Virus record (IMG/VR): IMGVR_UViG_3300030085_001998
Location: 1-35,809 of that record
DNA: 35,809 nt
DNA from: a virus
Strand: one strand, 5' to 3'
Shown one piece after another: positions 3 through 35,809 of this stretch. A model generated the notes under the pieces. That model saw nothing but the letters and a program-made list of their open reading frames with translations, made no database searches and had not been told where the DNA came from. Made by a program: the position numbers and the translations under genes. The number at the start of each line of letters is the position of its first letter. Positions within the stretch are counted from its first letter, which is position 1.

Positions 3-4280
<4,278 letters not shown>

Positions 4281-9344: not shown

Positions 9345-11510
9345 ATGGCAGAAACAATTATCTCTCCAGGTGTATTCACAAGAGAAAATGATATTTCATT
9401 TATTCAACCAGCCCCTGTAGCAGCAGGTGCGGCTATTATTGGACCAGCAGTAAAAGGTCCAGTAGAGGTACCAACACTCGTTACTTCTTATAATGATTAT
9501 GTAAGAAAATTTGGAACAACTTTTAGTTCAGGTTCAACTTCGTTTGAATTTTTAACTTCAATTGCGGCAAAAAATTATTTCCAACAAGGAGGTAATTCTC
9601 TTCTAGTATCAAGAGTAGTAACAGGTTCGTTTGGTAGAGCAACTTCTACTAACATTACTAACTTAACAACAGCTACTGGATTAGGCTTTGCTAGTGGATC
9701 ACTTACACTTGCAAGAGTTGCAGTAGACAACCAAGAATTTAGAGTAGGAAATATAAGCTCAGGAGGTTCTACTCTTACTTATAGATTCGTTGCTTCTGGT
9801 AACCCTATTCCTACTGATGATACTGATGGTTTAGTATTTTTCTTTTCTACAGGTTCAACTGCAGCTGCTTCAGCTGAAAATTTAAAAGAAGAAATTAATT
9901 CAGCTTTTGCAGGTTCACATGTTTCTGCAAGTGTAGATTCAGCTAAAATTATACTTTCAGGTTCTGCAGCAGGTATAGCAGCTAACGGAATAACATTCTC
10001 TACTGGTTCTGAAACAGGAACGTTTGAGTCTGATAATTTGTTAGGATTTACTTTAGCTGGAGGATCAAATACTACTACAGCTACTACTAATTCATTTTTA
10101 TTAGAAACTTTAGGTAAGGGTATAATTTATAACAACTCTACTGGAGCAACAGATCCTGGAGTACATAATACAGATAGTTCATTAGTATCAGGATCATCTG
10201 ATAACTTAAGATGGGAAGTTTCTAACGTCAATTCATCATTAGGTACTTTTACTTTAAGTATCAGACAAGGTGATGATAGTTTAAAAAATAAAGTAGTATT
10301 AGAAACGTACAATAATCTTTCATTAGATCCAAACAACGATAACTATATAGAAAAAGTTATCGGTAATCAGTACCAACAAATTAATACTTCTGAAACTCCT
10401 AACTATATAGAAACGATAGGTGAGCATGTAAATAAATCTAACTTTGTTAGAGTCTCAGCAGTAAATGCACCGACATTAGATTACTTAGGTAATGACGGCT
10501 TAACTGTTAGAACAGATGGACAGAATGTTTCTTATTCTGCTTCACTACCTATAGCACAATCAGGATCGTTCCATGGAGCTACAGGAGCATTATTTTCTTC
10601 TGATAGAGAAGCAAAATTCTTTAAAAATATAAGTAATACCGATACTCAAGGATTGACAGCAGGATGCTACACTAACATTATCTCAGTACTAGAAAATACA
10701 GACGATTATCAGTTTAACATTCTTAGTGCTCCAGGTTTAATATACGATCATGCTTCTCATATCACTCCTTTAGATAGTATTATTTCACTAACTGAAACAA
10801 GAGGAGATGCTATAGCAGTAATAGATTTAGTAGAACATGGTTCAACTGTATCTACTGTAACTACGCAAGCTGGATTATTAAATACATCTTATGCTGCTGC
10901 TTACTGGCCATGGTTACAGACACAATCTGCTACAGGTCGTAATGAATTTATACCTGCATCAGTAGTAATACCAGGAGTATATGCATTTACAGATAGTAGT
11001 TCTGCACCTTGGTTTGCACCAGCAGGATTAGTTAGAGGAGGTATTACAGGAGTAATACAAGCTGAAAGAAGACTTACAAGAACTCAAAGAGATACTCTTT
11101 ATAGTGATAAAGTTAATCCAATTGCTTCTTTCCCAGGACAAGGGATCTCAGTATTTGGTCAGAAAACTTTACAAACTAAAGCATCAGCTTTAGATAGAGT
11201 AAATGTAAGAAGATTACTAATTGCATTAAAGAAATTTATTGGTGATCAAGCAAGAACTTTAGTATTCGAGCAAAATACTATTACAACTAGAAACAGATTC
11301 TTAGCGGCAGTTAATCCTTACTTAGAATCAGTAGTACAGAGACAAGGTCTTTTTGCTTTCAGAGTAGTAATGGATGACACAAACAACACAGCAGACGTTG
11401 TAGATAGAAATCAATTAATAGGTCAAATCTTTATTCAGCCAGCTAAAACTGCAGAATTTATAGTATTAGACTTTACAATCGAACCTACAGGAGCAACATT
11501 TGCAGGATAA
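9345..11510 (+). CDS. 18: Tail sheath protein (T4 gp18 family)
   Basis: A 721-residue contractile sheath subunit. It polymerises around the tail tube and contracts on infection. The N terminus (ISPGVFTRENDISF, then AIIGPAVKGP and a VTSYNDYVRKFG segment) and the C-terminal domain (VNVRRLLIALKKFIGDQAR, RFLAAVNPYLESV, then a D-x-N-N-T and FIVLDFTIEPTG end) are classic for phage sheath proteins. The middle, about 120-330, is Ser/Thr/Gly-rich and variable, as expected for the surface-exposed insertions. T4 gp18 is about 660 residues, so this one is somewhat longer. The tube gene follows directly, which is the T4 order. The start is supported by the conserved N terminus. Confidence 0.97.
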   Translation: MAETIISPGVFTRENDISFIQPAPVAAGAAIIGPAVKGPVEVPTLVTSYNDYVRKFGTTFSSGSTSFEFLTSIAAKNYFQQGGNSLLVSRVVTGSFGRATSTNITNLTTATGLGFASGSLTLARVAVDNQEFRVGNISSGGSTLTYRFVASGNPIPTDDTDGLVFFFSTGSTAAASAENLKEEINSAFAGSHVSASVDSAKIILSGSAAGIAANGITFSTGSETGTFESDNLLGFTLAGGSNTTTATTNSFLLETLGKGIIYNNSTGATDPGVHNTDSSLVSGSSDNLRWEVSNVNSSLGTFTLSIRQGDDSLKNKVVLETYNNLSLDPNNDNYIEKVIGNQYQQINTSETPNYIETIGEHVNKSNFVRVSAVNAPTLDYLGNDGLTVRTDGQNVSYSASLPIAQSGSFHGATGALFSSDREAKFFKNISNTDTQGLTAGCYTNIISVLENTDDYQFNILSAPGLIYDHASHITPLDSIISLTETRGDAIAVIDLVEHGSTVSTVTTQAGLLNTSYAAAYWPWLQTQSATGRNEFIPASVVIPGVYAFTDSSSAPWFAPAGLVRGGITGVIQAERRLTRTQRDTLYSDKVNPIASFPGQGISVFGQKTLQTKASALDRVNVRRLLIALKKFIGDQARTLVFEQNTITTRNRFLAAVNPYLESVVQRQGLFAFRVVMDDTNNTADVVDRNQLIGQIFIQPAKTAEFIVLDFTIEPTGATFAG

Positions 11511-31879: not shown

Positions 31880-33595
31880 ATGAGCATAGCAGTAGATACT
31901 TCCAATTGGGAAGCAGGTAAGGATTATCCTGAATGGATGAACGAAATTTCTTTAGCAACAATTTCTAAAGGTTACTTGTTAGCTGATGAAAATCCTAAAA
32001 AAGCATATAGAAGGGTAGCTGATAGAATAGCTAAAAGACTAGACCGTCCAGACTTAGCAAATAAATTTTTTCGATATATGTGGAAAGGATGGCTGAACTT
32101 AGCCTCACCAGTTTTATCGAACACCGGAACCGACCGAGGATTACCGATCTCATGTTTTGGAATTGATACGCCCGATTCAATTCGAGGTATTGGTTTAACC
32201 AATGCTGAACTAATGAGACTTACCTCCCTCGGCGGTGGTGTCGGTATAGGGCTTTCACGTATTAGAGGTAGAGGTGAAAAAATAGGTAGTGGAGAGATGG
32301 GACAATCTGAAGGAGTAGTTCCGTGGGCTAAAATATATGATTCGACTATTATAGCTACTAATCAAGGAGCAGTAAGAAGAGGAGCAGCATCAGTAAACTT
32401 AGATATTAATCATCCTGATATAGAGGAATACTTACAAATACGTAGACCTAAAGGTGATCCTAATAGACAGTGTTTGAACTTACATCAATGTGTAGTTGTA
32501 GATGATCAGTTTATGCAAAGATTAGAAAGAAGAGATCCTGAAGCTATGAAACTTTGGGTGACTATTTTAAAAGCAAGAGTTGAAACAGGAGAACCTTACA
32601 TTATGTATAAAGATAATGTTAACAACGATAATCCACCTGCTTATGTTAAAAATAACTTAGACGTATCGATGACTAATATATGTTCAGAGATAACCTTACA
32701 TACAGATGAAGAACATAGTTTTATATGCTGCTTATCATCAGTTAATTTAACTAAATGGCACGAATGGAAAAATACCGACCTTATAGAAACAGCTATATAT
32801 TTTTTAGATGGAGTTTTAGAAGAGTTTTTAGCTAAAACATCAGGTAGAGATTCTTTAGTAAGAGCTCATAGAAGTGCTAAAAAAGGTAGAGCAATAGGAT
32901 TAGGTGTATTAGGATGGCATACTTTTTTACAAAATGAAAGAATACCTTTTAATTCTATAGCAGCTACTTCATATACTCATCAAATATTTTCACAAATTAA
33001 ATCTCAAGCAGAAGCAGCATCAAGAAAATTAGCTGATGAATATGGAGAACCGATATGGTGTAGAGGAACAGGAATGAGAAATAGTCATCTTTTAGCGATA
33101 GCTCCTACTGTATCCAATAGTACTATATCAGGAGGTGTGTCAGCAGGAATAGAACCTGTACCTGCAAATGTATATACTTTTAATTCTGCTAAAGGTACCT
33201 TTATTAGAAAAAATCCAGCTTTAGAATCTTATTTAGAAGAAAGAGGACAAAGTACTGAAGAAGTATGGGATGCAATTATGAAAGATAGAGGCTCAGTAGC
33301 AAACTTACCTGAAGACGTTATGCCTTTAGAAGATAAGCAAATATTTTTAACTTTTGCTGAAATTAACCAGCTAGCTTTAGTAGAGCAAGCGTCTGTTAGA
33401 CAGAAGTATATAGATCAAACACAATCATTAAATTTAGCTTTTGACCCTACAGATTCACCAAAATTTATTAACTTAGTACACCAAACAGCTTGGAAACTTG
33501 GAATAAAAACTCTCTATTACTTAAGAACTGATTCAGTAATTAACGGTGATATAGGATCTAGAACTTCTGAAGATTGTTTAAGCTGTGACGGATAA
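31880..33595 (+). CDS. nrdA: Class I ribonucleotide reductase, alpha subunit (NrdA), no ATP cone
   Basis: A 571-residue catalytic subunit that reduces ribonucleoside diphosphates for phage DNA synthesis. Active-site residues are C92 (ISCFGID, E. coli Cys225), N266-I-C268-S-E270 (Asn437/Cys439/Glu441), the C283/C284 pair before LSSVNL (Cys462 region), the radical-transfer Y546-Y547 and the C-terminal C566-x2-C569 shuttle. E. coli NrdA has 761 residues and reaches Cys225 only after an N-terminal ATP cone; here the same Cys is residue 92, so the cone that senses dATP is missing. The enzyme should resist dATP shut-off. Its electron donor may be the thioredoxin at 34197. Confidence 0.95.
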   Translation: MSIAVDTSNWEAGKDYPEWMNEISLATISKGYLLADENPKKAYRRVADRIAKRLDRPDLANKFFRYMWKGWLNLASPVLSNTGTDRGLPISCFGIDTPDSIRGIGLTNAELMRLTSLGGGVGIGLSRIRGRGEKIGSGEMGQSEGVVPWAKIYDSTIIATNQGAVRRGAASVNLDINHPDIEEYLQIRRPKGDPNRQCLNLHQCVVVDDQFMQRLERRDPEAMKLWVTILKARVETGEPYIMYKDNVNNDNPPAYVKNNLDVSMTNICSEITLHTDEEHSFICCLSSVNLTKWHEWKNTDLIETAIYFLDGVLEEFLAKTSGRDSLVRAHRSAKKGRAIGLGVLGWHTFLQNERIPFNSIAATSYTHQIFSQIKSQAEAASRKLADEYGEPIWCRGTGMRNSHLLAIAPTVSNSTISGGVSAGIEPVPANVYTFNSAKGTFIRKNPALESYLEERGQSTEEVWDAIMKDRGSVANLPEDVMPLEDKQIFLTFAEINQLALVEQASVRQKYIDQTQSLNLAFDPTDSPKFINLVHQTAWKLGIKTLYYLRTDSVINGDIGSRTSEDCLSCDG

Positions 33596-34812: not shown

Positions 34813-35118
34813 ATGCTTAGAAGACCAGATTCTATCCCTGCCGGGGATACTATTATAGAAGATACAGTAATGGAACCATTTTTTATTGCTAAATCTTCCT
34901 CAGGTGGTTATACACTGTATGAAAGAGTAGTAAAAGGTGAAAATAATACTCATTATATTAAAACTATTTGCTACCCTGGTAATTTTAATGCTGCGTTAAA
35001 AGCAGTATGTAGAGAATTACTTAATGGTAAAAGTAATCATTATACATCTATCAAAGATTATATTAATGAATGGAAAAATATTCAAGAAAAAATGTCGTCA
35101 TTGACTAATATAGATTAA
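34813..35118 (+). CDS. Conserved-looking phage protein, unknown
   Basis: A 101-residue soluble protein with two Cys, in KTICYPGNF and KAVCRELLN, and a Tyr-rich GGYTLYERVVKGEN strand. No fold is recognised. It lies 18 bases after the membrane protein gene, with a TTATG-type leader (AAAAGTTATG), and before the pseudoknot and queC. I recall similar proteins in marine phage contigs without a function. Confidence 0.65.
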   Translation: MLRRPDSIPAGDTIIEDTVMEPFFIAKSSSGGYTLYERVVKGENNTHYIKTICYPGNFNAALKAVCRELLNGKSNHYTSIKDYINEWKNIQEKMSSLTNID

Positions 35119-35123
35119 AAAAT

Positions 35124-35158
35124 AGCGTTTGCCTATACGCTTTATAATACCTGGCAAA
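35124..35158 (+). promoter_or_regulatory. H-type pseudoknot upstream of queC, possible preQ1-like riboswitch
   Basis: Stem 1 is AGCGT (35124-35128) with ACGCT (35137-35141). The loop of this hairpin contains TTGCC (35129-35133), which pairs with GGCAA (35153-35157) beyond the hairpin as stem 2. The linker is an AT-rich 11-base loop, TTATAATACCT. This is an H-type pseudoknot, the topology of preQ1 class I riboswitches. The gene behind it makes preQ0, the precursor of preQ1. Base identity does not match the class I consensus I know (no obvious ligand-pairing C in the short loop), so binding is a hypothesis. TTTATAATA here could also be a promoter box. Confidence 0.5.
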
Positions 35159-35176
35159 TATTTAAATTATAAAATT

Positions 35177-35809
35177 ATGGCAAAAAATGTTGTAGTGTCT
35201 TTATCTGGAGGGATGGACTCCTCTACTTTACTACTCAGATGTTTATCAGAGTATGATAACGTAACAGCTTTATCTTTTGATTACGGTCAAAAACATAGAG
35301 TTGAATTAAATAAAGCTCAGTCACTAGTTGACTATTTAAGTAAGAATGGACATAAAGTTAACTATCAAGTTATTAAGTTAGATGGTTTAGTTAATTTATT
35401 AAATTCTAATCTTGTAGAAGGAGGAGAAGATGTACCGGAAGGTCATTATGAAGAAGATAATATGAAAGCTACTGTAGTACCTAATCGTAATAAAATCTTC
35501 GCTTCTTTAATTCAGGCAGTTGCTTTATCAGCAGCTAACGCTAATGGAAATAATACAGATATTGCATTAGGAATTCATGCTGGTGATCATGCTATTTATC
35601 CTGATTGTAGACAAGAATTTAGAGATGCAGATGATGCAGCTTTTAGAATAGGAAATTGGGAAGCTGATAAAGTAGGTTACTTTACTCCTTATTTGGAAGG
35701 AGATAAATTTGATATCTTAAAAGATGGAGAAAAATTATGTGACCAACTTAATATTGAATTTGATGAGGTTTATAGTAGAACTAATACTAGTTATAAGCCT
35801 TATCCTAGT
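35177..35809 (+). CDS. queC: QueC-like 7-cyano-7-deazaguanine synthase, 3' truncated
   Basis: The open frame from ATG 35177 runs to the window end, giving 211 residues. QueC uses ATP and ammonia to convert carboxydeazaguanine (CDG) to preQ0. The PP-loop SGGMDSS is at 10-16, followed by SFDYGQKH, VVPNRNKIFAS and the diagnostic GIHAGDHAIYPDCRQEF near 135-151. Near the end, QueC normally has S-C-Y, the first Cys of its zinc site; here the segment reads RTNTSYKPYPS with Ser in that place. The remaining zinc Cys would fall outside the window. Phage QueC serves queuosine-type pathways or 7-deazaguanine modification of phage DNA. No other queuosine genes are visible here. Confidence 0.92.
   Translation, partial: MAKNVVVSLSGGMDSSTLLLRCLSEYDNVTALSFDYGQKHRVELNKAQSLVDYLSKNGHKVNYQVIKLDGLVNLLNSNLVEGGEDVPEGHYEEDNMKATVVPNRNKIFASLIQAVALSAANANGNNTDIALGIHAGDHAIYPDCRQEFRDADDAAFRIGNWEADKVGYFTPYLEGDKFDILKDGEKLCDQLNIEFDEVYSRTNTSYKPYPS

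Follow-up and report, generated by a model that had tools for sequence, protein, structure and literature searches.

A covarying pseudoknot in the leader of phage queC genes as a candidate 7-deazaguanine riboswitch

The window, i.e. the whole stretch of 35,809 nucleotides analysed here, is a 35.8-kb IMG/VR virus record. Among its genes are one for a phage tail sheath and a block devoted to replication and nucleotides, which comprises a polymerase fragment, a recombinase, an exonuclease, a helicase, subunits of ribonucleotide reductase, Endonuc_Holl and thioredoxin and ends with queC. In gene content and order, this block resembles the start of the Flavobacterium phage vB_FspM_immuto (hereafter immuto). 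Positions 3..4280 encode a highly repetitive collagen-like repeat protein of 1425 aa, open at its start, which is probably part of a tail fibre. Near the end of the window, a small open reading frame (101 aa) terminates with a stop codon at 35116-35118, and a pseudoknot spanning 35124-35155 begins 5 nt further on, between this stop codon and the queC ATG, which follows 21 nt downstream. The downstream gene encodes QueC according to PF06508 (E 7e-38), as the initial annotation had it. The features of the locus are as follows:

34813..35118, + strand: small open reading frame of 101 aa 5' of the pseudoknot, with no Pfam match (open reading frame listing, Pfam)
35123..35160, + strand: whole modelled element, a type A queC-leader pseudoknot (covariance model R1, 62.1 bits, E 2e-16, the window sequence itself being among those from which R1 was built)
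35124..35128, + strand: 5' strand of P1, AGCGU, pairing with 35137-35141, with compensating changes in relatives
35129..35130, + strand: L1, two variable bases (TT, TA, TC, CC, AA and others among relatives)
35131..35133, + strand: 5' strand of P2, GCC, unchanged in all 107 leaders that were located independently of it
35134..35136, + strand: L2, UAU, invariant in alignment A1, its last U directly 5' of the 3' strand of P1
35137..35141, + strand: 3' strand of P1, ACGCU, its first A pairing with the invariant U35128 (type A alignment)
35142..35152, + strand: L3, UUAUAAUACCU, including a conserved AAUAC at 35146-35150, of which AUAC is invariant in types A and B
35153..35155, + strand: 3' strand of P2, GGC, invariant in type A, with covariation in the corresponding type B helix
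35156..35176, + strand: spacer of 21 nt to the start codon, A/U only and lacking a Shine-Dalgarno sequence (from the sequence)
35177..35809, + strand: queC (7-cyano-7-deazaguanine synthase), ATG at 35177, cut by the window end (PF06508, E 7.1e-38)

The element thus reads AGCGU-UU-GCC-UAU-ACGCU-UUAUAAUACCU-GGC and forms an H-type pseudoknot of ~34 nt with two helices. The initial annotation had already placed such a pseudoknot upstream of queC, and both of its stems (AGCGT at 35124-35128 with ACGCT at 35137-35141, and TTGCC at 35129-35133 with GGCAA at 35153-35157) are present where it located them. It described them as nested, but they interleave; moreover, only GCC/GGC of its 5-bp P2 is conserved, while the outer TT varies, which leaves a P2 of 3 bp. 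With the collagen-like gene set aside, and with at least six G/C demanded among the ten bases of both 5' strands, no other + strand site in the window combines two perfect 5-bp stems that interleave. The nested minimum-energy fold does not mark the element (z = 0.39), so folding energy alone is uninformative and it is the comparative evidence that singles the element out. No + strand terminator is predicted between it and the queC AUG.

We then compared the leaders of related queC genes. Eighty relatives of the queC protein were taken from viral contigs, the leader being ignored in the selection, and 70 of these loci carry the same element; conservation of the stems in relatives, named beforehand in the initial annotation as a point on which its proposal could fail, is therefore borne out. 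Among 229 distinct phage queC leaders gathered by protein similarity alone, 108 contain an element like that of the window (type A), 58 contain a second form (type B, of which one or two calls may be chance), three contain a possible third form (type C) and 60 contain none. The pattern GCCTATA..ATACCTGGCA has at least 120 matches in viral contigs, and queC follows all of the examined matches except two chance ones. The upstream gene is swapped while the motif stays at queC; the element precedes a QueC that is only 45% identical in one contig (L087), and it lies shortly before queC in the cultured phage immuto. The distance from P2 to the ATG is nearly constant, at 18-25 nt (median 20, n = 151) in type A and with a median of 20 nt (n = 56) in type B, and the spacer consists of 96% A/T and 1% G, with no Shine-Dalgarno sequence in either type. 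In one contig (L145), a small insertion has displaced the type A element from queC. There, within positions 10600-11200, type A is followed ~450 nt on by a type B element directly before queC, with small reading frames between the two.

Compensating base changes were assessed in an alignment of 110 distinct type A sequences (A1). P1 occurs as GCGU/ACGC, ACGU/ACGU, GGAU/AUCC, GUGU/ACAC and other variants, and the full helix changes in a compensating manner in relatives (e.g. AACGU/ACGUU, AGGAU/AUCCU, AGUGU/ACACU and UGGAU/AUCCA). Three of its four pairs vary on both sides, and the 54 double changes counted exceed the number in every one of 500 shuffles. On a tree of the QueC proteins (all trees were built with FastTree only), the minimum numbers of changes in the three pairs that vary are 12, 23 and 12, respectively, and the variation thus does not reflect one inherited event. 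Covariation of P2 was sought within type A and none was found, GCC/GGC being present in all 107 leaders located without using P2. Type A by itself therefore cannot prove P2, and we infer this pairing from the topology that type A has in common with type B.

Type B came to light by following a divergent QueC protein (L191), which led to leaders that contain, instead of type A, a pseudoknot of the same order. Examples are CCGGUU-AA-GGAGU-U-AAUCGG-..AAUAAUAC-GCUCC, AACGCUU-AAAC-GGGA-GU-AAGCGUU-..AAAUACAA-UCCC and AGGUU-UGCA-ACUCC-AU-AACCU-ACAAUACC-GGAGU. Both helices covary in this type, and the check proposed in the initial annotation, i.e. covariation in the two stems, thus has a positive outcome for P1 in type A and for both stems in type B. 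All five P2 pairs of type B vary on both sides, with 37 double changes (none of 500 shuffles reaches this), and the P2 cells are 98.2% paired compared with 18-51% for slid helices; the paired fraction is not independent evidence, because the type B descriptor demands pairing, but the controls are. This descriptor finds 54 of 94 queC leaders, compared with one of 1860 dinucleotide-shuffled leaders at a score of at least 15 and two of 982 other windows of the same contigs. Of the type B elements, 44 distinct ones were segmented; in each of them, P1 is closed by two U-A pairs, a U immediately precedes the second P1 strand and loop 3 carries AUAC near its end; the descriptor required AUAC and the A that opens the second P1 strand, but not the U.

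Types A and B share (i) a U-A pair that closes P1; (ii) a U immediately before the second P1 strand; (iii) a loop 3 that ends in (A/C)AUAC; and (iv) a P2 that ends ~20 nt before the AUG, the spacer between them being A/U-rich and free of a Shine-Dalgarno sequence. Over the types, P1 ranges from 4 to 7 bp and P2 from 3 to 7 bp. This small shared core suggests that A and B are subtypes of one class. The possible type C (L301, L309 and L390, upstream of queC) reads GGAU..CCC-U-AUCC..ACAUACU-GGG and overlaps the 3' end of the upstream coding frame; its region is homologous to the leader region of another contig (L064), where type A likewise sits in coding sequence.

The element appears to be specific to a single gene. 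In 21 of 22 long phage records, model R1 finds a single strong copy, which lies at queC, and model R2 likewise finds one strong copy per record at queC. The whole immuto genome contains a single strong copy; the best of its weak second matches lie inside structural or hypothetical genes, lack a full P1 and were rejected. No copies at other genes were found with R1 or R2 in the long phage records and the immuto genome. An exact-pattern scan of one genome each for 84,980 bacterial and archaeal species gave 46 matches, of which 44 lack the combination of P1 and queC and were dismissed as chance, while the remaining two have P1 and sit in phage-like contigs before phage-like queC genes. One of these two contigs (L241) belongs to a Flavobacteriales MAG. 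When 346 genomes from the order of this MAG were searched with R1 and R2, nothing credible emerged beyond the contig itself; a match of 30.8 bits, antisense inside an apparent crtI-like gene, was judged to be chance. As far as tested, the element thus appears to be restricted to phages.

We also considered the pathway to which queC belongs. The immuto record is annotated with FolE, QueD, QueE, QueC and QueF, and Pfam matches agree, for QueE only at the level of a radical-SAM protein. All 22 long relatives tested have a homologue of the immuto DpdA, a call that is taken from the record annotation and has no Pfam match, and 15 of the 22 have a QueF-family match, seven of them over the cut-off. 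In some records dpdA directly follows queC (e.g. L541, with queC at 3341-2481 and dpdA at 2474-1665, both on the minus strand). Insertion of 7-deazaguanines into phage DNA is carried out by DpdA and protects the DNA against restriction (PMC6884629).

A second element lies at another gene of this pathway. The best match to the preQ1-I family (RF00522) in the phage records is sub-threshold (21.8 bits, E 0.0059 for the short stretch) and lies just before folE. Relatives, immuto included, contain GGAG-UCGUAGAAC-CUCC-AUAAAAACA at 5-11 nt before the start of the FolE-matching gene, and its P1 covaries to UGAG/CUCA and UGUG/CACA. The AC 5' of the second P1 strand fits the type II preQ1-I consensus (PMC11625349), while the immuto copy has no Rfam match. 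Two copies have the following coordinates:

L249 (immuto), 32364-32392: preQ1-I-like element in the folE leader
L540, 2384-2425, minus strand: preQ1-I-like element in the folE leader

Further folE-leader copies are found in L544-L547, L568, L576, L577, L580, L612, L615, L624 and L653. The same UCGUAGAAC...UAAAAACA element with a short P1 also occurs upstream of genes that cannot be recognised as folE (L618, 9587-9608; L647; L616). In these phages, a preQ1-I-like switch thus probably serves folE, and the present element queC. The folE element makes a 7-deazaguanine ligand plausible for the queC element as well, which may read a different member of the same family.

The structure of the queC element is conserved and covaries, and the gene whose leader contains it is of metabolic relevance, as expected of a riboswitch. 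We propose, with a probability of roughly 60%, that the element serves as the aptamer of a candidate class of riboswitches, restricted to phages and situated in the leader of the queC mRNA, which would sense a 7-deazaguanine and block translation. As 7-deazaguanine accumulates, either preQ0 (the product of QueC) or preQ1 (the product of QueF) would bind at the helix junction and stabilize the pseudoknot, and the stabilized knot would block access of the 30S subunit or S1 to the A/U-rich initiation region, so that queC translation would fall. When the ligand is scarce, P2 would open and queC would be translated. Through such feedback, the supply of modified base would stay in step with the DpdA-dependent marking of phage DNA. 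Cytosines read the guanine-like face of the ligand in all three preQ1 classes (PMC11625349). In the present element, no cytosine outside the helices other than the C of AUAC is conserved in all subtypes, and this C is a natural candidate for the role. If, alternatively, the U before the second P1 strand acts as a specificity base of the preQ1-I kind, an adenine-like ligand would be expected.

A fuller form of this proposal, to which we give just short of even odds, is that the element represents a fourth and phage-only 7-deazaguanine riboswitch class, which comprises two or more subtypes, may be selective for preQ0, controls translation without a Shine-Dalgarno sequence and tunes DNA hypermodification during infection. 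If preQ0 or preQ1 is sensed, phages would exert feedback on the supply of a modified base by which they shield their DNA from restriction, and the aptamer would be compact and new. Riboswitches of mRNAs without a Shine-Dalgarno sequence have been predicted yet are hard to find (PMC11625349). The present element looks like such a case, and its fixed 20-nt geometry makes the mechanism directly testable; since immuto and its host, Flavobacterium sp. LMO8, are cultured, tests are possible at once.

Known pseudoknots of phage mRNAs suggest another reading. T4 gp32 binds a pseudoknot in its own mRNA leader and represses translation, and pseudoknot operators occur in T4-like phages. The queC element could likewise be a translational operator to which QueC, DpdA or another phage protein binds, thereby repressing queC translation. 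It resembles the autoregulatory pseudoknot of T4 gene 32 in its H-type fold, its place in a T4-like phage mRNA leader and its presumed control of translation, and its gene specificity, single copy per genome and constant distance to the AUG would suit an operator equally well. By contrast, the T4 pseudoknot is bound by protein and differs in gene and sequence, while the queC element has a conserved loop core and precedes a metabolic gene. Its junction and loops (AUAC, U and UAU) are strictly conserved while its helices vary, which is typical of a compact aptamer pocket, and the same phages carry a preQ1-I-like metabolite element at folE. We therefore regard an operator as unlikely.

H-type pseudoknots can also serve as stability elements, and the upstream stop codon lies just 5 nt away. 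A pseudoknot acting independently of any ligand could thus stabilize the mRNA, insulate queC from upstream ribosomes or fix its level of translation. However, a general stability element would be expected before other genes too, which is not the case in the long phage records and the immuto genome, and mere stability does not call for the loop bases that are kept across QueC proteins down to 45% identity. This makes such a role rather improbable.

Next we consider whether the pseudoknot at queC could belong to a known riboswitch class. Similarities to preQ1-I riboswitches (RF00522; types I-III, PMC11625349) include a small H-type pseudoknot with a P1 of ~5 bp and a short P2, an A-rich loop 3 and a position in the leaders of 7-deazaguanine genes, which for the present element is always queC. 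In the preQ1-I consensus, a specificity cytosine (UC or AC) lies directly 5' of the 3' strand of P1 (PMC11625349). The queC element instead has a U at this position, in the invariant UAU of type A and in 44 of 44 type B elements; it also differs in its L2 of just 1-3 nt, the U-A pair that closes P1, the (A/C)AUAC core and its distance of ~20 nt from an AUG without a Shine-Dalgarno sequence. The initial annotation had remarked that the class I consensus does not fit and suggested an RNA family search; consistent with this remark, RF00522 does not match the leader of the window when hits up to E 10 are admitted, the window as a whole has no Rfam match at the gathering cut-off, and the leader searched up to E 10 gives chance families only. 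Over the cut-off, RF00522 is found in none of 25 phage records, compared with one of 14 control genomes. Membership of the preQ1-I class is thus very improbable, and the element is better treated as a candidate new riboswitch class.

Like the present element, preQ1-II (RF01054) and preQ1-III (RF02680) regulate 7-deazaguanine genes. Their pockets consist of U-A-U triples and a conserved C, a chemistry that the core of the queC element could offer. They differ, however, in being larger HLout pseudoknots with 4-5 helices, and the queC element matches neither in Rfam. The glutamine riboswitch of marine phages is an example of a riboswitch carried by phages, but it belongs to an unrelated, catalogued class known from bacteria (PMC9004378), and riboswitches are described as rare in phages (PMC9004378). 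The study of 7-deazaguanines in phages does not mention riboswitches (PMC6884629), and the preQ1 review does not mention phages (PMC11625349). The element has no entry in Rfam 15, and no description of it was found in the literature searched in full text, a partial coverage that leaves an earlier description possible. 'A divergent or new class carried by a phage', as the initial annotation put it, remains its best description, given that it is conserved, covarying, apparently phage-restricted and without an Rfam match.

A TATAAT-like string within L3 might suggest a promoter or protein-binding site in the DNA, but this is scarcely credible given the compensating changes in two interleaved helices, the constant strand and distance to the AUG, and promoter-like matches in the region that do not exceed chance level.

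The 60 of 229 queC leaders without any element (e.g. L337, L351 and L433) indicate that it is dispensable in some phages; several of their start codons abut or overlap the upstream gene. In the queC phages Cellulophaga phiSM, KVP40, Dp-1, BSP7, R5C, 033B, CPt10 and CAjan, neither model nor a known riboswitch has a match near queC. In the unrelated Campylobacter phage CPt10, an array of five tandem repeat units is annotated immediately before queC (L538, 1014-1388).
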